Source: Gemmatimonadota bacterium (GTDB taxonomy: Bacteria; JAAXHH01). From it: DNA of 53,525 nt. Numbering within the stretch: the first letter of the stretch is position 1; each line of letters begins with the position of its first letter. The stretch lies in assembly GCA_009835325.1 (NCBI GenBank), contig VXWP01000078.1, forward strand, positions 1-53,525, read 5' to 3'. This document shows positions 16,591 to 26,004 of this stretch, piece by piece. Under the pieces are notes generated by a model, which saw nothing but the letters and a program-made list of their open reading frames with translations, ran no database searches and was not told the DNA's origin. The translations under genes were made by a program, and so were the position numbers.

Positions 16591-16821
16591 ATGCCGACCA
16601 TCTCAAAGAGCAGGCTCAAGGCCAACATGCTCCAGGTTTTCAGGGAGATCGAGGAATCGGGCGAAGAGCTGATCGTGACGCACAACCGGCGTCCCGTGCT
16701 GCGCATCCGACCGATTGGAACAAAACAACCGGTTGACAAGATATTCGAGAAACTACGTGGGAAAGTCGTCTACCACGAGGACATCAACACGCCCACCACC
16801 GACGAATGGGATGGAGTGTAA
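16591..16821 (+). CDS. Phd/YefM-family antitoxin
   Basis: A 76-residue type II antitoxin. The N-terminal DNA-binding half (PTISKSRLKANMLQVFREIE, then EELIVTHNRRPVLRIRPI) is the classic Phd/YefM fold. The acidic C-terminal tail (EDINTPTTDEWDGV) is the likely toxin-binding part. I start at the ATG 16591, which has GGGGAC nine bases upstream; an in-frame TTG at 16570 is less likely. It overlaps the PIN-domain toxin gene by one base (TAATG). Regulation is probably by binding of the antitoxin-toxin complex to the palindrome at 16556-16569. Confidence 0.9.
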   Translation: MPTISKSRLKANMLQVFREIEESGEELIVTHNRRPVLRIRPIGTKQPVDKIFEKLRGKVVYHEDINTPTTDEWDGV

Positions 16822-17201
16822 TGGTCGTACTGGATACGTCCTCACTGGTATTCTGGACGCTGGATCCCGGCCGCCTGTCCAGGACCGCCGAACGGACCAT
16901 CGCACTGGCCGACCGCGTAGGCGTCAGTTCGATATCGATCTGGGAGATCGGCATCAAAGTAGAACGGGGCAGGCTTGTACTGCCGCTTTCCGGCGCGGAA
17001 TACCTGGAGAACCTGGAGCAAACCAATCGGGTGGAAATACTGCCTGTGGATCTCAGTACCTGGATCAGGAACCTGCAACTGGATTGGAATCACCAGGACC
17101 CTGTCGACCGGACCATCGTAGCAACGGCTTCTCTACACAACTGTCCGCTGGTGACTTCGGACAACGTGCTCCGCAGTTTCTACGAGAAGGCGGTCTGGTA
17201 G
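16821..17201 (+). CDS. PIN-domain ribonuclease toxin (VapC family)
   Basis: A 126-residue PIN-domain toxin. The four acidic metal-binding residues are all present: D5 (VLDTSSLVFW), E42 (SIWEIGIKVERG), D96 (DPVDRTIVATA) and D114 (TSDNVL). It should be an Mg-dependent RNase held inactive by the antitoxin encoded just upstream. The pairing of a Phd-type antitoxin with a PIN toxin is common. Length is usual for the family. Part of the lower-G+C patch 16.5-18.1 kb, which suggests transfer. Confidence 0.92.
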   Translation: MVVLDTSSLVFWTLDPGRLSRTAERTIALADRVGVSSISIWEIGIKVERGRLVLPLSGAEYLENLEQTNRVEILPVDLSTWIRNLQLDWNHQDPVDRTIVATASLHNCPLVTSDNVLRSFYEKAVW

Positions 17202-17203
17202 GG

Positions 17204-17560
17204 TTACTTCAGAGGTGGATCTGTTTCAGGTAGGACTAATAATGAAATTAGAGAAATCAGTCCAGGTAAGTCCTACTGTACAGTTCGCCATAGAATATCA
17301 AGGTTTATGTCGTAATAAGCATGGACTAGTCGATTTCACATTCCAATGATTCGCTGCCACGGTATTTGGTCATTATAACGACGAGTCGGTTCCGTTATCT
17401 GGTTCGCGGCCTCACCCACAATCTCGATATCCTTAACCAATGCAAGGACGAGTTTGCGATCGGTGTCCAAGTCACTACGCTCGCATCCTTGAACGAACGA
17501 AACCGCTTCCCGTGCGGCATCCAACATGTGCCTGAATCGGATCTCGTCATCCTTGCACAT
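17204..17560 (-). pseudogene. HepT-type HEPN toxin gene with two in-frame stops
   Basis: The intact N-terminal 74 residues (from MCKDDEIRFRHMLDAAREAV to IPWQRIIGM) match HepT/DUF86 toxins. Codon 75 (17338-17336) is TGA exactly where the conserved Arg of the HEPN RNase motif R-x4-H-x-Y belongs. The frame goes on as NRLVHAYYDINLDILWRTVQ, then a TAG at 17275-17273 where family members have Glu, then DLPGLISLI, ending at TAA 17206-17204. CGA to TGA and GAG to TAG are single-base changes. The start has GGAGG six bases upstream and overlaps the end of the MNT gene by 14 bases. Other genes here use TGA as a stop, so recoding is unlikely. Confidence 0.88.
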
Positions 17561-17852
17561 ACTGATCCTCCGCCGTATCAAGGACCTCCTGACGGAAGTA
17601 CCGACTCAAGTCCTCCGGTGTTCTCAGATCCACCTTTCGCCCGCCAAGTAGCTTAGATAGCTCAATCTCCATTCCTGCCATACCCAGGAGACCGGGAGAG
17701 TATCCGGGGGTAAACTCGACCAATACGTCGATGTCGCTTTCGGAATCGAAATCGGTCCGCAGCGCAGAGCCGAAAATCGCGAACCGACGTATTTTGTGCG
17801 CTTGGCAGAAATCTGCGAGTACTATCTCAGGGATAGATATCTGTGCGTTCAC
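17547..17852 (-). CDS. MNT-type nucleotidyltransferase antitoxin (MntA-like)
   Basis: A 101-residue minimal nucleotidyltransferase, the antitoxin half of MNT/HepT pairs. MntA antitoxins add AMP to the HepT Tyr in R-x4-H-x-Y. The catalytic signature is complete: G28-S29 in FAIFGSALRTDF, then D40/D42 in ESDIDVLVEF, and a third Asp D75 in KVDLRTPE. I start it at GTG 17852, which has AAAGG upstream and gives the usual family length; a second GTG at 17918 is in frame but adds atypical sequence. Its toxin partner just downstream is interrupted by stop codons, so this antitoxin may now have nothing to neutralise. Confidence 0.85.
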   Translation of the reverse strand: MNAQISIPEIVLADFCQAHKIRRFAIFGSALRTDFDSESDIDVLVEFTPGYSPGLLGMAGMEIELSKLLGGRKVDLRTPEDLSRYFRQEVLDTAEDQYVQG

Positions 17853-18030
17853 AGTAATACCTTTTAAGTCGAAATCAAAGCAGACAGGTTTAAGTGCCAA
17901 TGTGCATCGAATCTTCACGCACTAAAATCGTGGAGATCAACCCAATTAAATCCATTAGACCGAAGTGTTGGATGTAACGACACAACCAATCACCTCAGTT
18001 CCTGGTTTTGTACATGCCAGATAGGTTAGT

Positions 18031-18100: not shown

Positions 18101-18634
18101 TCACCCCGGCGCTGGCGCCACGTGTTCCAGCCCGAACTCATCCCGTAGGCGGGCCATCTCCTTTTCCAACTCTTCAGGATCGGCCGTTTCCGGGGGCATG
18201 CGCCGCAGCAACCGGTCGGACGCCTCGAAGAAGCGGTCCAGTCCCGCGGGGGTGCAGATCAGCACAATGTGCGCCGGATCGTCCCCTTCGTTCCAGAAGG
18301 AATGGGGTTTCCATCCCGGCACCGTAACCATCTGGCCGGCCTCAAGCACAAATGCGTTTTCGTGGAGAAACTTGAAAGTCAGCGCGCCTTTGACGACCAG
18401 GAACATCTCGATGAAAGCGTGCCGGGTGAATATGGGCGGCGGGCTGTGGGGCGGTTCGACGGCCTCGATGACCGTCACCCGACCCTTTGTGGCGGAACCC
18501 GGGGTCATGACCCGTACGTTCTGGCCCATGAGCGTATTGAGCCAGGGGCCGCCGTTGCCTCCGTTGCCGCCGTTACCCCCGGGGCCGCCGTTGCCTCCAA
18601 GACCTCCGGGACCTACGTTGCCGTCGCCTTTCAT
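18101..18634 (-). CDS. Cupin protein with Gly/Asn-rich collagen-like N-terminus
   Basis: A 177-residue protein. Residues 7-30 form a low-complexity Gly/Asn/Pro tract (GPGGLGGNGGPGGNGGNGG). A single cupin domain follows (about 45-130), with the metal-type motif FTRHAFIEMFLVVKG, a second part VPGWKPHSFWN, and a charged helical C-terminus (EELEKEMARLRDEFGLE). The start overlaps the stop of the large M28/FtsX gene as ATGA, so the two are translationally coupled. An internal Met (about residue 36) could give a protein without the Gly tract. Function unknown; a sensor or accessory role for the upstream membrane protein is possible. Confidence 0.78.
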   Translation of the reverse strand: MKGDGNVGPGGLGGNGGPGGNGGNGGNGGPWLNTLMGQNVRVMTPGSATKGRVTVIEAVEPPHSPPPIFTRHAFIEMFLVVKGALTFKFLHENAFVLEAGQMVTVPGWKPHSFWNEGDDPAHIVLICTPAGLDRFFEASDRLLRRMPPETADPEELEKEMARLRDEFGLEHVAPAPG

Positions 18635-21600
18635 GAGACCTGCCCCGCGTCTCTAGCGGCTCCCGCGACCTCTACTCCCGCACTTCCCGAAATCATCTCC
18701 CGCCCTTCGTCCGCGTAGACCGTCTTGACCTCCTGGTCCACGGTGCGCCATACCAGGAACTGCTTGCGCAGCACGTTCAGGAAGCGCCGGTTGAGGCGCT
18801 GCCATGAATCCACGTCGCCGCTCAGACGGTAGATGTGCACCCACACCGCGTACAGGTCGTGTTCTTCTTCGGCGGGGGCCGCGTGGAGGGACACGCGTTG
18901 GCTGACCCCCGTGTCGTAGGGCGCCAGCCAGGTCTTCATGCTGATTTCGTAGGTGGATGCTTCCGGACCGGCATCGGATGCCCGCTCCTCACCCGGAACG
19001 GCCGTGGCCACCCGGCCGCCCGATCGCCCGGCCGCCGGAGCAGATCCATTCGTCCCGGTAAGCGCCACCTCGTCCGTCATGAAGTTTCCCAGCGTGCTTT
19101 CGCCGTGGGATTCGAAGAACCGTGTCAGGTAGGCGCAGAGTCCCAGCGTCTCCGTGCGGCTGATGGTGAAGGGGAACTCGAAACGCCAGTCGTCGCCCTC
19201 GGGCTCGGGGAAGGACCACTGCCGGTTGACGTCCGGCACGGCCATCTGGGAGGCTTTTCGCGCAGGATAGATCGTCGACAGCATGACCACCGCCATGACC
19301 ATGAACGTGGAGGCCACGGCGGAAAGGGACGAGTAGTTCAGGTTCAGCCCCGCGAGCAACTGGTACTCCGTGATCCCCCGGACCAGGGTCTGTCCGATCA
19401 GGTAGCCTGACATGCCGCCGATGACGGCGTACATGGCCGCCTCCGCCATGAATAGCGCGCCGATGTGGGCCGGCGCCAGGCCCACGGCGCTGTACACCCC
19501 GATCTCGCTGAAGCGTTCGTAGACGGCGTTCATCATGGTGTTCAGGATGATGAGGGCGGCCACGACCATGGGAATGAACAGATTGCCGAGCCCCGACAGT
19601 GAACTCAGCGCCATGGCGCTGTATACCGCGACCTCTCCGTCCACGGACGCCACCACCGGGATCCCGAGACGCTGCATGAAGCGTTCGATCCGGTTGGCGG
19701 CCGCTTCGTCCGTGGGAAACCGGACCGCGACGGAGCGGAGGGTCCCGCCGAGATCGTTCACATAGGCCTGCGGGGTCAGCAGGATGTTCGCGGCCGGCAG
19801 GTGCTCGAACGCGGCCATATCCACGGGCTCTTCGTCGTAGTCCATCAGGGCGAGTTCGGTCAGCAGATCCTGGCCCGTCGCCGTGTAGTCCACGGGTGTG
19901 AGCGGCTCGCCGTCCAGATCGGTGATCTTTTCGAGGTCGGCCGCGTCGAATACGCCGATCACCTCGAAGGGCTGTCCGAACACGAGGACTTCGGATCCCA
20001 CGATTTCATCCCCGGTCAAGCCGAGCAGCTCCGCCATTTCGGCCGGGACGATGCATACTTCGCGCTCCCCGGGCTCGAACCACCGGCCCGATCTCAGCGT
20101 GCGGTCCAGTCCGCTCACCTCCCCTTCTTCCGGCAGCAGGCCGAGGATGGCCGAGGCATAGGTGGAATGGTTCGTGCCGTCCGGTCCCTCCCGGTCCATC
20201 CTGATGAAGGTCGTCTCGCCGGGGAACGTGCCGGAGTACCACGACCGGGATACGATGGTGATGCCCCGGTCTTCGGCCTCCGACGAACCGAACTCGGATT
20301 CCACGTACTGGAAGGTCTGTTTCTGGAGCGGTCCCCAGTTGGGGTTGCGGACGAGGAAGCCCGTATAGGTGGCGTCCGTGTCCCGGCTCAGCGTCTGCAG
20401 CCGGAGGAAGGTCTGCACGGAGGTGAAGGAGAGCACGGTGAACACCAGGAGCACCAGGGTGACGCACGTCAGCAGGGTCCGGGCCTTGCGCTTTCGCATG
20501 TTGCCGATGCCCAGGGAGAAGGCCGTGGCCAGGGCGCTCGACCGCCGCACGTCGGCGGACTGCACGGTACGGTTGTCCTGCCGGACCTCCCGCATGGTCT
20601 GGCTGAACCGCTGGGATATGATCCAGATGACGACGGCGGCGAGGACGAAGGTCATGAAGGCGAGGAGCACGATGTCGGGCGCCGTGGTGATCTGGAAGGC
20701 CGGGTGGGTGAACCTCAGCAACCCGTATGCGGCCAGGAAGATGGCGACGGTAGTGGCGATCCGCTTGTACACGTTGGCGAATCCGAAGACCAACCGCTCC
20801 AGGGCGTACGCGAACGGGATGACGAGCACCATGTAGAACAGGACGCCCTTCACGACATCGTTGGCCGTCCCGGTCGCGTCCGGATAGGCGCGGGACTCGT
20901 ATCCCCACGCGGCCCGGGCGTGCTTGATGAACCGGTCCCACTGCAGGTTTTGCCGGGCGGTCTCGGCCAGGTCCAGCAGGCGGCCCGCCTCCCGGTGGAA
21001 GTCGTCCAGCCGGGTGTTGCTCACGCCGACGGACTTGAGCGCGCCGATCCGCGCCTCGTCCAGGTGCCACATGTCTTTCGCCACCTGGTAGGAGGTCAGG
21101 GGGATGGCGTCGATACCCGCCTCGAACCCGATTCCCTCGGGGTTGTTCTCGTCCGCGTTGGTCAGGATGAGGCGGCGGCCGAACAGGCCGGTGGACATGG
21201 TGACCTTGAACCGGCTTTCCGGCGGCATGAAGAGGACGGCCGTGTCCTCCTCATACGAAAAACCCGTGGTCCACGCGCCTTCCTGGAAGGTCATGCCCCA
21301 TTCAAGGGGCGGATTGCCCGATTCGTCGAGTACCACGGCCTCGTTCAGCCGGGTCAGGAAACGCGGGTCCACCAGGTCGTAGATGTTGGTCGCCTCGGAC
21401 CGGAAGACCACCGTGGGTTTCTCCTTGTCCACCCAGTCCATCTTGATCTCGAGGGGATAGGCGCCTTCCCCGTAGGGACCGCGGTCCGGCGCGTAGATGA
21501 TTTCCCCCGTTTCCGGGTTCATCACGTAACCTTCCGTGGGGTAGGTGCGCCCCGCCTCCAGTTCGGTACTTTCGGCTACCCCGGTGCTGTCCGCCACCAC

Positions 21601-23262
21601 GAAAATCTCGTTCTTGACGCCGCTGATGGTCTTGTTGTAGCGGCGGAAACGGACCACGGCGCCCGGTTTGGGCTTGCTCGGGATGTAGTCCTCCCGGGGA
21701 TCGAACTCCACGACCCGGATCCGGCCGTTCACGAAGCGGTCCTCAAGCTGCATCTTGAAGTCCGGGAACAGGCGGGGATCGTTGACGCCGCGACCGAAGA
21801 GCTCGGTCAGCAGCAGCGTCTGCGTGTACACGTTGCGGAAGTTGACCCGGTCGAGGTCGTCGATGGGCGTGTCCACGAACTCGCGGACGTCGAACACCGT
21901 GGCGAAGGACAGGGCCGGGATTCCCATCCAGAACATGAGTTCGGCCTCGAGGCCGATCTGGCCCGCGGGAAAGAAACCGGCGGTCCGGTGCCCCTGCGAA
22001 GGCGAAATCACGTTCACCAGGGCGTCGGCCGGAATGGCGCCCCGCCGGATCACTTCTTCGGCGTAGCCCATGAAGGTACGGCCGAATGGCGTGAAGAACC
22101 GCTGTTTTTCGAAGGAATCCCCCCCGAAGAAGACGCCGGAGTAGATGACGCCGACCTGGTCGCGCGCGCTGGACAGGTCGATACCGGCGAAGAGCTTGAT
22201 GTTGATGGGGTCCTCGAGTTCGTCCGCGAAGTGACTGGAGATGCGTGCGTGGCGGTAGGCGAAGTCGTTGATCCCGCTGAGCGACATGAAGTGACCCGAC
22301 GTCGCGAGTATCAACACGGTGCGCGCGGGAGGATGGGCCGCGAAGTAACGGGCCATTTCAAGGAGCGCGGCCACGCCCGACGCCTGGTTCGCGCCGGGGG
22401 ATACGGCCGGCACGGCGGAGATGGAGTCGTAGTAGGCGTTGAGGACGATGACCTCATCCTTCAGCACCGGATGCGTCCCCGGGATCTTACCGAAGACATT
22501 GTAGGCCGGTCGCCGTTTCCAGGTCATGCGTCCTTTTGCCCGGACGTTGATCGAGCCGTTGGATTCGAGGTATTCGACCAGGGGCCGGGCCGCTGCCTTT
22601 TTCATCCAGAAACGGGGGAAGTCGAGGGGGACCTGGAGGTGCTTCTCCTCTCCGTCGACCCGCGTGGTGTGGTCGGGTTCCGCGAAGATCACGGCACGGG
22701 CGCCGAGCTGGGCGGCCCGCTGCCAGTTTACGCCGGAATTGAAGTCCATCAGGATGACGGCGCCGGCGGGATCGATGCCGTTGAAGTCCGCCCACTCGCC
22801 GTTGCCGACGTAGTGAAGCTTCCCCGTGATGCCCCCCGGCGGCGTCGTGGAGGTGCGCACCAGGTTGGGCCACAGGGCATAAAGGGGGATCGTCCGGGCC
22901 TCCAGGGTCGTGACATCCAGGAGGGTCAGTTCGCCGCCTTCGTCCAGGGGGATGGACGAGACGAATTCCTCCATCTCGACGTCCTCGAGACCGATTTCCC
23001 GCATGCGATCGGCCAGGTAGTACGCCGCTTCGGTGGCGCCCGGGTAACCGGCTACCCTCGAGCCGAAGGACACCAGGTCGGTAATGGTCTGCCGGATCCG
23101 CGCCGAGTCGACCACGGCGGCCACCTGGCCGTCGCCGATGGGTTCGGCCAGGACCTCCACCCGGTCGCGGACACCTGTCGTCTGGCAGGCGGAGACCGCG
23201 AGCAGTGCGAGCGGCAGGACCAGGCCGACAAGATGGCCGATAAGGGTTCGTTTAAGGTGCAA
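18631..23262 (-). CDS. M28-peptidase-like domain fused to FtsX/MacB-type permease (large lipoprotein)
   Basis: A 1543-residue fusion. Residues 1-26 are a lipoprotein signal (LLAVSAC, C26). Residues 50-250 resemble an M28 N-terminal part with a PA-type insert. The M28-like core (about 250-490) has lost key residues: GAHYDS is NAYYDS (H to Tyr277), the ADDNASG-type metal Asp is missing in PGANQASG, and the SGEE pair is SGHF (324-325). A beta-rich region follows, then four hydrophobic segments near 800-900. From about residue 905 it is an FtsX/MacB-like permease with TM near 930, a soluble loop, and three TM at about 1225-1340. The last 200 residues are soluble. TTG start with GGAAAG upstream. 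No matching ATPase is adjacent. Confidence 0.83.
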   Translation of the reverse strand: MHLKRTLIGHLVGLVLPLALLAVSACQTTGVRDRVEVLAEPIGDGQVAAVVDSARIRQTITDLVSFGSRVAGYPGATEAAYYLADRMREIGLEDVEMEEFVSSIPLDEGGELTLLDVTTLEARTIPLYALWPNLVRTSTTPPGGITGKLHYVGNGEWADFNGIDPAGAVILMDFNSGVNWQRAAQLGARAVIFAEPDHTTRVDGEEKHLQVPLDFPRFWMKKAAARPLVEYLESNGSINVRAKGRMTWKRRPAYNVFGKIPGTHPVLKDEVIVLNAYYDSISAVPAVSPGANQASGVAALLEMARYFAAHPPARTVLILATSGHFMSLSGINDFAYRHARISSHFADELEDPINIKLFAGIDLSSARDQVGVIYSGVFFGGDSFEKQRFFTPFGRTFMGYAEEVIRRGAIPADALVNVISPSQGHRTAGFFPAGQIGLEAELMFWMGIPALSFATVFDVREFVDTPIDDLDRVNFRNVYTQTLLLTELFGRGVNDPRLFPDFKMQLEDRFVNGRIRVVEFDPREDYIPSKPKPGAVVRFRRYNKTISGVKNEIFVVADSTGVAESTELEAGRTYPTEGYVMNPETGEIIYAPDRGPYGEGAYPLEIKMDWVDKEKPTVVFRSEATNIYDLVDPRFLTRLNEAVVLDESGNPPLEWGMTFQEGAWTTGFSYEEDTAVLFMPPESRFKVTMSTGLFGRRLILTNADENNPEGIGFEAGIDAIPLTSYQVAKDMWHLDEARIGALKSVGVSNTRLDDFHREAGRLLDLAETARQNLQWDRFIKHARAAWGYESRAYPDATGTANDVVKGVLFYMVLVIPFAYALERLVFGFANVYKRIATTVAIFLAAYGLLRFTHPAFQITTAPDIVLLAFMTFVLAAVVIWIISQRFSQTMREVRQDNRTVQSADVRRSSALATAFSLGIGNMRKRKARTLLTCVTLVLLVFTVLSFTSVQTFLRLQTLSRDTDATYTGFLVRNPNWGPLQKQTFQYVESEFGSSEAEDRGITIVSRSWYSGTFPGETTFIRMDREGPDGTNHSTYASAILGLLPEEGEVSGLDRTLRSGRWFEPGEREVCIVPAEMAELLGLTGDEIVGSEVLVFGQPFEVIGVFDAADLEKITDLDGEPLTPVDYTATGQDLLTELALMDYDEEPVDMAAFEHLPAANILLTPQAYVNDLGGTLRSVAVRFPTDEAAANRIERFMQRLGIPVVASVDGEVAVYSAMALSSLSGLGNLFIPMVVAALIILNTMMNAVYERFSEIGVYSAVGLAPAHIGALFMAEAAMYAVIGGMSGYLIGQTLVRGITEYQLLAGLNLNYSSLSAVASTFMVMAVVMLSTIYPARKASQMAVPDVNRQWSFPEPEGDDWRFEFPFTISRTETLGLCAYLTRFFESHGESTLGNFMTDEVALTGTNGSAPAAGRSGGRVATAVPGEERASDAGPEASTYEISMKTWLAPYDTGVSQRVSLHAAPAEEEHDLYAVWVHIYRLSGDVDSWQRLNRRFLNVLRKQFLVWRTVDQEVKTVYADEGREMISGSAGVEVAGAARDAGQVS

Positions 23263-23310: not shown

Positions 23311-24216
23311 CTAGACCTTCCACTTCCGCCGCATCTCCTCCATGGAAACGGTCTTTCCCTCGGTCCACGCGTAATGGGCGACGGGGTTTTCGCCGACCCA
23401 CCGGTGGTCGACGGGTTCGCTGGCCAGCTGGTACCGGGTATCGGTGCTGATGCGGAACCGGTTCGACGTGTTGTTGATGGAGCCGTGCATGGTGTACATG
23501 CCGAGGACGATCACATCGCCCATGCTGAATTCGCTCGTCTGCCACTGGCCCCCGTACTGGTCGACCATCACGATGGGCTCGTTGGTGAAGTGGCCCGTCA
23601 CGTGGTCACGGTCCACGTCCATCTGGCCGTAGGTCTCCTTGACCGCCTCGAACTGGTGGGATCCGGCCAGGATGACCAGGGGGCCCATGTCGAAGGACAC
23701 GTCGTCCAGGGGCGTCCACACGGTATACAGGTTCGGCGTGCCCCGGCCCATGTAGACCATGTCGTAATGCGCCCCGGTGTTGTCGCCCGGCCCTACGGCC
23801 CGGAGCCACTTGTAGTCGAAGGTGAGGACGGGGCCGCCAAGGAACCGCTCGAAGAACCCCATGATTTCGGGGGAATTGACCACGGCGAGAAATTCTTCCG
23901 TGTGCGTCACCCGCTTGGCGCCGCCGAAGAAGGCGCCCCGCTTGCCCGGCGCGGCCACCCCCAGGTCGAGGGGATAGTCCGGATCGATCTGGTCGTTTGC
24001 CTGGAGATTCTCCAGCACGACCCTGCGGGCTTCCCGGACCTTGTCGGGATCGTGGAGACCGCGTATGAGCAGGTAGCCGTCTTCGGCCATGCGTTCCCGC
24101 AAGGCTTCCGCGTCGTCCAGCAGTTCGTTCGCTTCCCGGAGCGTGGACAGGTACTTCCCGTCCATCAGCAATTCGTCCTTGCCCATGACCAGGCTTGAGG
24201 GTTCCCGGGTGGTCAT
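23311..24216 (-). CDS. PhyH-family Fe(II)/2-oxoglutarate dioxygenase (paralog 6)
   Basis: A 301-residue PhyH-type enzyme. Ligands are H150-x-D152 in TGAHYDMVYMG and H244 in YTMHGSINN, with Arg at 253/255. The LAGSHQFE turn is present. The start at 24216 is fixed by a GGAGG six bases upstream; the longer open frame to 24276 lacks support. It is larger than the other paralogs because of an extended N-terminal helix region (residues 1-45). It lies 22 bases after the transporter ATPase gene and 48 before the M28/FtsX gene, so it is probably part of a long minus-strand transcript. Confidence 0.88.
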   Translation of the reverse strand: MTTREPSSLVMGKDELLMDGKYLSTLREANELLDDAEALRERMAEDGYLLIRGLHDPDKVREARRVVLENLQANDQIDPDYPLDLGVAAPGKRGAFFGGAKRVTHTEEFLAVVNSPEIMGFFERFLGGPVLTFDYKWLRAVGPGDNTGAHYDMVYMGRGTPNLYTVWTPLDDVSFDMGPLVILAGSHQFEAVKETYGQMDVDRDHVTGHFTNEPIVMVDQYGGQWQTSEFSMGDVIVLGMYTMHGSINNTSNRFRISTDTRYQLASEPVDHRWVGENPVAHYAWTEGKTVSMEEMRRKWKV

Positions 24217-24238
24217 TGGTTCCTCCGTGGTTGGTCGT

Positions 24239-25312
24239 TCATGAAGCCCGGACGGCCAAGGCGTCGATGGCGGCATACACCGTATCCCCGACGGTGATGC
24301 CCATGTCCGAAAAAGACGCCCGCGCCACGTGGACGGTCAGGCGAAGTCCGGCGTCCACGTCCAGGCGTATGCGGTCTCCGTCCACCGCCGCCGCGGTCAC
24401 GACGCCCTTAAGCGTATTCGCGGCGACCGGCGTGCGCGTCGGCTTCGCCGGCGGCCTCGCCAGCCGGATTTCCTGCGAAGAGATAACGATGTGGGCCGGT
24501 CCGCGCGCGGTCGTGTCCGAACGCAGGGTTACACCGCCGTCCAGTCTTACGACCGGGCCGTCGGCAGAATCCTCGATGCGGCCCTTGAAGACGTTCTCCG
24601 GTCCCCGCTCGAGCATCCGCCCGTCGCGCATGATCAGCACTTCGTCGGCGATGCGATAGGCCTGGTCGTACTGGTGCGTCGAGAGCACGACCGTCATGCG
24701 CCGCTGGCGGCACGTCTCCGCGAGAATCGCCTCGATCTGCTTCCCGTGCGCCGCGTCCACGCTGGCCGTGGGCTCGTCGAGCAACAGGACGTCGGGATCC
24801 GTAACCAGGGCCCGGGCGAGTCCCGCCCGCTGCGCTTCTCCGCCCGACAGGCTGTGTGCGGGCCGGTGGGCGAATTGCCGAAGACCCACCTTGTCCAGCA
24901 TGCCGGTCACGCGTGCTTCGATGGCCTCCTTCGCCATGCCGCGGAACCGCAGGCCGGACGCCACGTTCTCGAATACGGAGGACCGGAACAGGTACACGTG
25001 CTGCATGAGCAGCGTGACGCGGCGGCGGTACTGACGGCTGCGGCCCGGATCGGCCCCGTTCACGGGCCGGCCTTCGAAGAGGATCCGGCCCTCCTGCGGC
25101 AGGGTCAGCAAGGCGAGTATGTTCAGTAGCGTGGTCTTGCCCGATCCGTTCGCCCCGTAGACGGCATAGGTCTTTCCGGCGTACAGGGCGAGGTTTTCGA
25201 CATGCAGATGAAACCCGGAACCGTACCGGTGCGCCAGGTGCTCGCCCACGATAATCGGACCGGTCGTCATCGGACCGGCCGCGACCGGATCGGCCGTGAT
25301 CGGATCGGCCAT
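24239..25312 (-). CDS. ABC transporter ATPase, tungstate/molybdate type (TupC/WtpC-like)
   Basis: A 357-residue ATPase. Walker A is YGANGSGKTT (about residue 55), the signature is LSGGEAQRAGLARAL (about 160), Walker B is VLLLDEPTASVD (about 180), and the switch His lies in VVLSTHQYD (about 213). The C-terminal 60 residues are a Mop/TOBE-like oxyanion-binding domain (ANTLKGVVTAAAVDGDRIRL), which points to molybdate or tungstate. The start overlaps the permease stop (TGATG). The first 20 residues are a Pro/Ala/Gly repeat encoded by tandem GGATCGGCC-like units; an internal Met start near residue 15 is also possible. Confidence 0.88.
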   Translation of the reverse strand: MADPITADPVAAGPMTTGPIIVGEHLAHRYGSGFHLHVENLALYAGKTYAVYGANGSGKTTLLNILALLTLPQEGRILFEGRPVNGADPGRSRQYRRRVTLLMQHVYLFRSSVFENVASGLRFRGMAKEAIEARVTGMLDKVGLRQFAHRPAHSLSGGEAQRAGLARALVTDPDVLLLDEPTASVDAAHGKQIEAILAETCRQRRMTVVLSTHQYDQAYRIADEVLIMRDGRMLERGPENVFKGRIEDSADGPVVRLDGGVTLRSDTTARGPAHIVISSQEIRLARPPAKPTRTPVAANTLKGVVTAAAVDGDRIRLDVDAGLRLTVHVARASFSDMGITVGDTVYAAIDALAVRAS

Positions 25313-26004
25313 CAGTCGTCGAACCCCTGCAGCCAGTGAAAGAGAATGTTCGCGCCGAATGCCGTGAGCAGCAGGATGATCCCGAGGGCGATGGCGAGGC
25401 CGAACTCCCCCTTGTTGCTCTCCAGGGCGATGGCCGTCGTCATGGTCCGCGTGCTTCCCTTGATGTTGCCGCCCAGCATCATGGCCGCGCCCACCTCGGC
25501 GATGACCCGCCCGAATGCGGCTACCACCGCCGCCATGATGCCGAACCGGGCCTCCGAAATGAGGGTGCGCGCCGTCTGGGCTGTCGTCGCGCCCAGCGTA
25601 AGGGCCGTCTCCGTGATCCGGGAATCCACGGCTCGGAACGCCGAGAGGGTAAAGGCGGCCACGATGGGCAGAGCGAGGAGCGTCTCGCCGATGATCATGG
25701 CACTCGGTGTATACAGCAGTTCCATGAAACCGAGCGGGCCGCGCCGGGAGATCAGGGAGTAGACGAAGAGGCCGATCACGACGGTCGGCATGGCCAGCAT
25801 CGTATTGAGCACCGTGGTCACCAGCCGCTGGCCCCTGAACCGGCGGGTGGCGAGCAGGTAGCCCGCGGGCAGTCCCATCACGGAAGCCAGCAGGATCGCG
25901 GACACCGCGACGAACACGGAAACGCCGACGATGGTATACACGCCGGATTCGCCGGTGACCAGCAGGCGGACCGCTTCCTGAAATCCACTGTACAGGTATT
26001 CCAT
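25312..26004 (-). CDS. ABC transporter permease, tungstate type (TupB-like)
   Basis: A 230-residue permease with about five or six membrane segments. It carries the typical TupB region EVGAAMMLGGNIKGSTRTMT followed by TTAIALE, and the permease EAA-like loop around ETALTLGATTAQTARTLI. It pairs with the ATPase that starts at its stop codon. No TupA/ModA binding protein is encoded beside it: the next gene upstream is on the other strand. Supplying Mo or W would suit the molybdoenzyme encoded at 13923-15104, though that link is inference. Confidence 0.87.
   Translation of the reverse strand: MEYLYSGFQEAVRLLVTGESGVYTIVGVSVFVAVSAILLASVMGLPAGYLLATRRFRGQRLVTTVLNTMLAMPTVVIGLFVYSLISRRGPLGFMELLYTPSAMIIGETLLALPIVAAFTLSAFRAVDSRITETALTLGATTAQTARTLISEARFGIMAAVVAAFGRVIAEVGAAMMLGGNIKGSTRTMTTAIALESNKGEFGLAIALGIILLLTAFGANILFHWLQGFDD

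Follow-up and report, generated by a model that had tools for sequence, protein, structure and literature searches.

What does a protein do that is built like a peptidase, lacks the residues of a peptidase and ends in a permease? The question is raised by one gene in the stretch of DNA analysed here (the window, 53,525 nucleotides), which comes from a genome of the phylum Latescibacterota. A first-pass annotation made from the sequence had described the gene product as a pseudo-peptidase joined to a MacB/FtsX-type permease, and not a classical M28 protease. We followed this description through the altered residues, the predicted fold, the homologues and the genes that accompany them.

Fold and altered M28 site of the giant protein

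The open reading frame starts with TTG, runs for 1543 codons and ends with TGA; we refer to its product as the giant (Table 1). Three Pfam families score above their gathering thresholds: Peptidase_M28 at residues 255-335 (42 bits), MacB_PCD at residues 929-1108 (31 bits) and FtsX at residues 1230-1340 (53 bits). AF2 modelled residues 28-830 with a pLDDT of 88.9 and a pTM of 0.87. When the head was compared with the PDB by Foldseek, M28 aminopeptidases with a PA domain came first (best 2ek8, E 4.9e-26), with BSAP and PaAP also found, followed by transferrin receptor and glutamate carboxypeptidase II (GCPII), and hmmsearch with a head profile matched 2ek8 (1.1e-20) and nicalin (1.6e-8). In the predicted structure the head is an M28 aminopeptidase fold with a PA domain, in agreement with the earlier statement that the fold around the altered residues is well kept.

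Residues 800-1530 were modelled with a pLDDT of 77.8 and a pTM of 0.47, so that in this part of the model the domains alone are reliable. The permease half as modelled has the MacB/LolC fold (Foldseek: MacB 5gko, 1e-13; LolC 7mdx, 4.6e-9), and the MacB periplasmic domain by itself matched 5c59 and 9qgy. Pfam and Foldseek together place this periplasmic core between TM1 and TM2 of an FtsX transmembrane domain. Hydropathy and the AF2 helices give one N-terminal segment, three linking helices and four FtsX helices, a layout that would put the head outside the cytoplasm and the C-terminal domain inside it. The hydropathy pattern of the linking helices recurs in homologues, and comparison of homologues also shows WLAPxD and RKxFLVWRT to be conserved in the C-terminal domain. 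The N-terminal segment ends in a lipobox-like VSAC and may be a signal peptide or an anchor.

Table 1. Positions in the window of the giant gene, its parts and its neighbours
Feature	Positions	Strand	Basis
Giant pseudo-M28/FtsX protein (probable half-permease), 1543 aa	18631..23262	-	Open frame, Pfam, homologues in 29/384 genomes
N-terminal hydrophobic segment, residues 7-25	23188..23244	-	Hydropathy
Predicted extracytoplasmic head, ~residues 44-490, M28 fold with PA-domain insert	21793..23133	-	AF2, Foldseek, hmmsearch
Beta-rich middle domain, ~residues 505-700	21163..21750	-	DSSP on AF2 model
Three extra transmembrane helices linking head to permease, ~residues 803-882	20617..20856	-	AF2 helices, hydropathy
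FtsX TM1 and MacB-like periplasmic core domain, residues 929-1108	19939..20478	-	Pfam MacB_PCD; Foldseek 5c59, 9qgy
FtsX TM2-TM4 and conserved ER-x2-EIG coupling segment, residues 1230-1340	19243..19575	-	Pfam, conserved positions, Foldseek
Conserved C-terminal alpha/beta domain, residues 1350-1530, predicted cytoplasmic	18673..19215	-	AF2
Tyr277-Tyr278-Asp279 replacing His-x-Asp	22426..22434	-	Alignment of 54 homologues
PGANQASG, residues 289-296, replacing PGANDDASG; bridging Asp lost	22375..22398	-	Alignments
His324-Phe325 replacing catalytic Glu and metal Glu	22288..22293	-	Alignment of 54 homologues
Asp362, kept metal-ligand position	22177..22179	-	Alignment of 54 homologues
Asp464-Thr-Pro-x-Asp468 replacing His-Thr-Pro-x-Asp	21859..21873	-	Alignment of 54 homologues
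Cupin ORF, ATGA overlap with giant	18101..18634	-	Pfam, neighbourhood comparison
PhyH-type dioxygenase upstream of giant	23311..24276	-	Pfam, neighbourhood comparison

The positions through which M28 enzymes bind metal and perform catalysis are well established, and a profile of 30 homologues of the giant was aligned to solved members of the family. Tyr277 falls at the metal-His position of HxD, PGAN-QASG has a gap where one Asp of NDD would stand, and His324-Phe325 occupies the Glu-Glu pair; the changes originally reported at the His of GAHYDS, the Asp of PGANQASG and the SGEE motif are thus borne out. That all key residues are substituted was an overstatement in one respect and incomplete in another. 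Asp279 (the D of HxD) and Asp362 (at a metal-ligand position) are retained, and a fourth substitution had been missed, Asp464 at the metal-His position of HTPxD (aligned to HTPxD of 2ek8 and BSAP). Asp362 is the sole survivor in the window protein from the two-metal ligand set His, Asp, Glu, Asp, His.

The same states recur across 54 aligned homologues. Position 277 is Y in 27, F in 23, H in 3 and P in 1, and Asp279 is found in all 54. The catalytic Glu of M28 is absent, with His324 in its place in 53/54; Asp362 and Asp464 are each present in 53/54, and Phe325 in 48/54, with Phe or Tyr at this metal-Glu position in 50/54. Position 292 is N, E or D in the family (E or D in 36/54; Asn in the window protein). 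A further 17 motif windows agree with these substitutions. None of the approximately 71 members examined has an intact M28 site (they come from Latescibacterota and unrelated lineages, the unrelated genomes being represented in part by some of their paralogues only). As a control, another M28 protein encoded in this genome retains the intact motif (GGHLDSWDVSEGAHDDGAG ... NEENG), so the method is able to detect an intact site.

Four of the seven catalytic positions are conserved at 93% or more in the family, compared with 27 of 216 positions across the region; at least four of seven would be conserved by chance with p ~0.006, a rough value that ignores phylogeny. Conservation of the altered pocket suggests that it has a job, and argues against a relic. 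The giant is homologous to M28 peptidases, though by these residue tests it does not look like an active one.

Alternatively, the rebuilt site (His324, Asp362, Asp464 and an acidic residue at 292) may bind metal, and the head may have kept or gained hydrolase or amide-transfer activity. The three near-invariant residues do stand at old active-site positions, position 292 is acidic in two thirds of the family, and an aminopeptidase whose catalytic Glu is exchanged for His (2anp, E151H) reportedly retains some activity. There is also a precedent in the M28-like GPAA1 subunit, for which a modelling paper proposes a zinc-binding mode (PMC7522609). Yet other residues stand at both metal-His positions and at that of the metal Glu, NDD has lost its bridging Asp, the window protein itself has Asn at 292, and an aromatic residue takes the metal-Glu position in nearly all homologues. 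We consider this alternative unlikely.

Distribution and partner genes

Two more full-length giants are encoded in the same genome (44% and 41% identity), with the same substitutions, and the gene is present in 16/16 genomes of the phylum. Of 384 genomes sampled across the domain, 29 have it, 13 of these lying outside Latescibacterota; G089 and G202 were left out of this count, as their weak matches span the FtsX-like stretch only. The phylum of G331 has strong matches (E 6e-90 or better) in 82/85 genomes, two others giving weak M28-level matches and one no match, and the phylum of G361 has the giant in 5/5 genomes, once as a fragment. In a tree of the permease half, the window protein groups with copies from its genus and family, and the three giants of its genome form separate supported clades that reach past the genus. 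We interpret this to indicate an old duplication and a dead site that most likely dates back to the common ancestor. Within the 85-species phylum, the giants of L083 and L081 (genomes G054 and G199) carry LysM motifs toward the N terminus, which were absent in giants of other lineages scanned with Pfam. The L083 giant also has an insertion of ~720 aa within its M28-like domain, without a Pfam match, and large giants occur in L084 as well.

Directly downstream of the giant, in 14/14 unrelated loci read, lies a gene for a multi-TM, OPT-like protein of ~663 aa. This protein was found in 29/29 genomes with a giant and in 0/355 without, and there are three copies per genome in Latescibacterota. A naive Fisher test gives p 3e-44, with shared ancestry or joint transfer not modelled; the genomes in these counts are phylogenetically non-independent, and counting each lineage about once (rounded counts of 14 and 300) gives p near 1e-24. 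Like the OPT oligopeptide transporters (PF03169), the partner has many transmembrane segments; the OPT profile matches 4/16 members (best E 4.9e-6), whereas OPT models find none of the other 12/16, which leaves the assignment weak at sequence level. A search for solved relatives found none. The most divergent giant (L085:5240-11086, on G296:C54) has Gln, Ser and Ser in place of His324, Asp362 and Asp464; Pfam finds no M28 domain in it, yet the OPT-like gene still lies downstream. DUF6785/DUF6784 or DUF6785-like membrane proteins adjoin some giants (L088:14090-16081, L080:2572-4590). Profile comparison of DUF6785/DUF6784 with the OPT-like partner aligned 528 columns at 6% probability, and DUF6785 is unmentioned in the open-licence literature searched.

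As a check, the first-pass annotation had proposed a search for a conserved neighbouring MacB-type ATPase. Such a gene is not next door here: none of the MacB/LolD type was found next to the window copy, nor within ~8 kb of either paralogue. The unrelated genomes differ: a LolD-type ATPase gene lies near the giant there, on the same contig and within ~5 kb in 9/13. The corresponding ATPase of the window's genome (G000:C32:14932-15645) is 81% identical to that of G361, the next best match in the genome reaching 45%, and by sequence comparison this dedicated LolD-type ATPase is a distinct clade there. The clade was detected in 28/29 genomes with a giant and in 0/355 without (naive Fisher p 1e-41, shared ancestry or joint transfer not modelled); the sole exception is G015, an 83% complete genome of the same phylum. 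In Latescibacterota the ATPase is unlinked to the giants, so that their physical partnership is putative.

The ATPase rarely stands alone. In the window's genome it ends a cluster (L109, G000:C32:12693-15657) that begins with a protein of ~349 aa that Pfam does not match convincingly and continues with a PqqD-like protein and a mini-FtsX. PqqD is a peptide-binding fold. The mini-FtsX is a half-permease of 220 aa here (~215 aa generally), has no periplasmic domain and, like the giant, keeps the ER-x2-EIG coupling segment. The three genes also adjoin in other genomes, the ATPase being almost always beside mini-FtsX and usually also beside the PqqD-like protein. In three genomes of the 85-species phylum no mini-FtsX was detected beside the giant-linked ATPase, so pairing of giant and mini-FtsX as a heterodimer may not be a universal rule; two of the three have a mini-FtsX beside a second ATPase copy. 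The L109 cluster lies amid housekeeping-looking genes and occurs once in this genome, which has three giant permeases.

The immediate neighbours of the window copy are more local. The ATGA overlap from which co-translation with a cupin had been proposed is real; it is found in 4/9 genomes measured (the remaining five have gaps of 35-150 nt) and is a genus-level trait rather than a core feature. Adjacency of the cupin is restricted to the genus and absent from the other paralogue loci, and we rejected the cupin as a conserved partner. The PhyH-type gene neighbours the giant in genus and family; the wider system lacks this arrangement. The Gly-rich N terminus of the cupin (18550-18634; sister loci such as L007, L010 and L012) varies in length between sister genomes, which makes the cupin ATG plausible, and the remainder is ~78-87% identical among them. 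An importer-type ABC pair in the window (24239-26004, minus strand; ATPase with TOBE domain and BPD_transp_1 permease) was considered as the motor and rejected, since its ATPase matches the dedicated one at 33% only; it possibly serves oxyanion uptake and appears unrelated to the giant. A PIN-like ORF (16806-17201, plus strand; a sequence reading) lies near an ORF with a Pfam nucleotidyltransferase domain (17547-17918, minus strand), and the two are possible toxin-antitoxin pieces.

Relation to known systems and competing explanations

M28 aminopeptidases with a PA domain (2ek8; BSAP/YwaD, 6hc6; PaAP, 8ac7) share with the giant the head fold, the domain order, the Asp of HxD and one metal Asp. 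The giant differs from them in the replacement of each metal His, the bridging Asp and both Glu of the pair, and in its fusion to a permease. A dead M28 fold that serves as a membrane-anchored receptor or scaffold is known from transferrin receptor (3kas) and nicalin (7tm3). The likeness of the giant's head to these is one of fold, not membership, as both are eukaryotic and have no ABC permease. GPAA1 of GPI transamidase likewise has an M28-like luminal domain on a membrane protein, although it is eukaryotic and part of a different complex.

By its predicted fold, the giant belongs to the type VII ABC permease (MacB/FtsX/LolCE) superfamily, whose known members include homodimers, heterodimers and fusions, some with an ATPase fused to them and some without (PMC5985334). 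By profile scores it is not MacB proper (NCBIfam, 26.8 bits against a cut-off of 966, and no fused ATPase domain) and not LolC/LolE, and it also falls below the NCBIfam cut-off for ADOP. MacB, LolCDE, FtsEX and YbbAP share with it the four-helix FtsX permease, an extracytoplasmic core domain and the conserved coupling segment, and their separate LolD-type ATPase has a putative counterpart in the dedicated one. No MacA adaptor or TolC partner, as in MacAB-TolC pumps, was noticed in the neighbourhoods read. In contrast to these systems, the giant has an additional extracytoplasmic region of ~800 residues with a pseudo-peptidase head, three extra TM helices, a probable pairing with a mini half-permease, and OPT-like and PqqD-like companions. 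The words M28 and peptidase are absent from the main text of the type VII review (PMC5985334), and the open-licence literature searched holds no description of M28 combined with an FtsX-like permease, or of PqqD with LolD and FtsX. Residues, Pfam matches and folds all uphold the description with which we began.

The resemblance of the permease half to LolC and MacB, and of the ATPase sequence to the LolD/MacB type, would also fit a machine that handles lipids or lipoproteins like LolCDE or YbbAP-TesA, with the head as an envelope scaffold and not a peptide receptor. For YbbAP-TesA, pairing of a type VII system with a lipid hydrolase is reported (PMC12646458). We regard this as improbable, as membership in NCBIfam lolCE fails (22.2 bits against a cut-off of 362.45) and the constant partner is OPT-like, neither a chaperone nor a hydrolase. 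FtsEX offers another precedent, also with the FtsX fold: ATP-driven movement might toggle a periplasmic partner, such as a wall enzyme or a receptor, without any transport. LysM is a wall-binding motif, and its occurrence in two of the Pfam-scanned giants favours such signalling, whereas its lack in the giants scanned from other lineages and the multi-TM, transporter-like nature of the constant partner leave it with a low probability. Finally, a frameshift, mis-assembly or gene decay is extremely improbable: the genome is a draft of 119 contigs, but nothing was found in support, the frame is open, the changes recur in paralogues and unrelated genomes, and a search for homologues with intact zinc residues, which the first-pass annotation had named as the refuting case, found none.

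A proposed envelope machine and its significance

The co-occurrence of the ATPase and the transporter-like partner with the giant points, at the level of sequence, to an undescribed envelope machine. We think it likely that the giant serves a type VII ABC machine as its large half-permease, with the dead M28/PA head as the binding module. There is also a good chance that giant, ATPase and OPT-like protein work as one machine, with mini-FtsX as the second half-permease. Giant and mini-FtsX would form a heterodimer on the shared dedicated ATPase, probably working with the OPT-like protein, and in Latescibacterota one motor would serve several giant paralogues. When ATP drives the FtsX helices, their movement would pass through the periplasmic core to the head. 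We guess that the head binds a peptide, a peptide conjugate or a protein ligand, which it might pass to or from the OPT-like partner, or whose presence it might signal; the direction is likewise a guess.

A peptide or peptide conjugate as ligand is a possibility that we hold tentatively, because a pocket derived from an aminopeptidase co-occurs with OPT-like and PqqD-like proteins. More doubtful is the idea that the type VII ABC motor drives the OPT-like partner through the dead aminopeptidase head. Such a hybrid machine, for uptake or for export, would be near-universal in at least two bacterial phyla, one shared ATPase and mini-permease serving several exchangeable giant heads.

If the likely reading of the giant and its partners is correct, they constitute an undescribed multi-gene envelope system that is near-universal in two bacterial phyla and scattered in others. 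A peptidase fold would here have become the receptor-like head of an ATP-driven permease that transmits force, and bacteria would have a counterpart of transferrin receptor and nicalin. The system also hints that an ABC motor and an OPT-like transporter work together. The conserved, rebuilt pocket would offer a direct and testable handle on what this machine binds.
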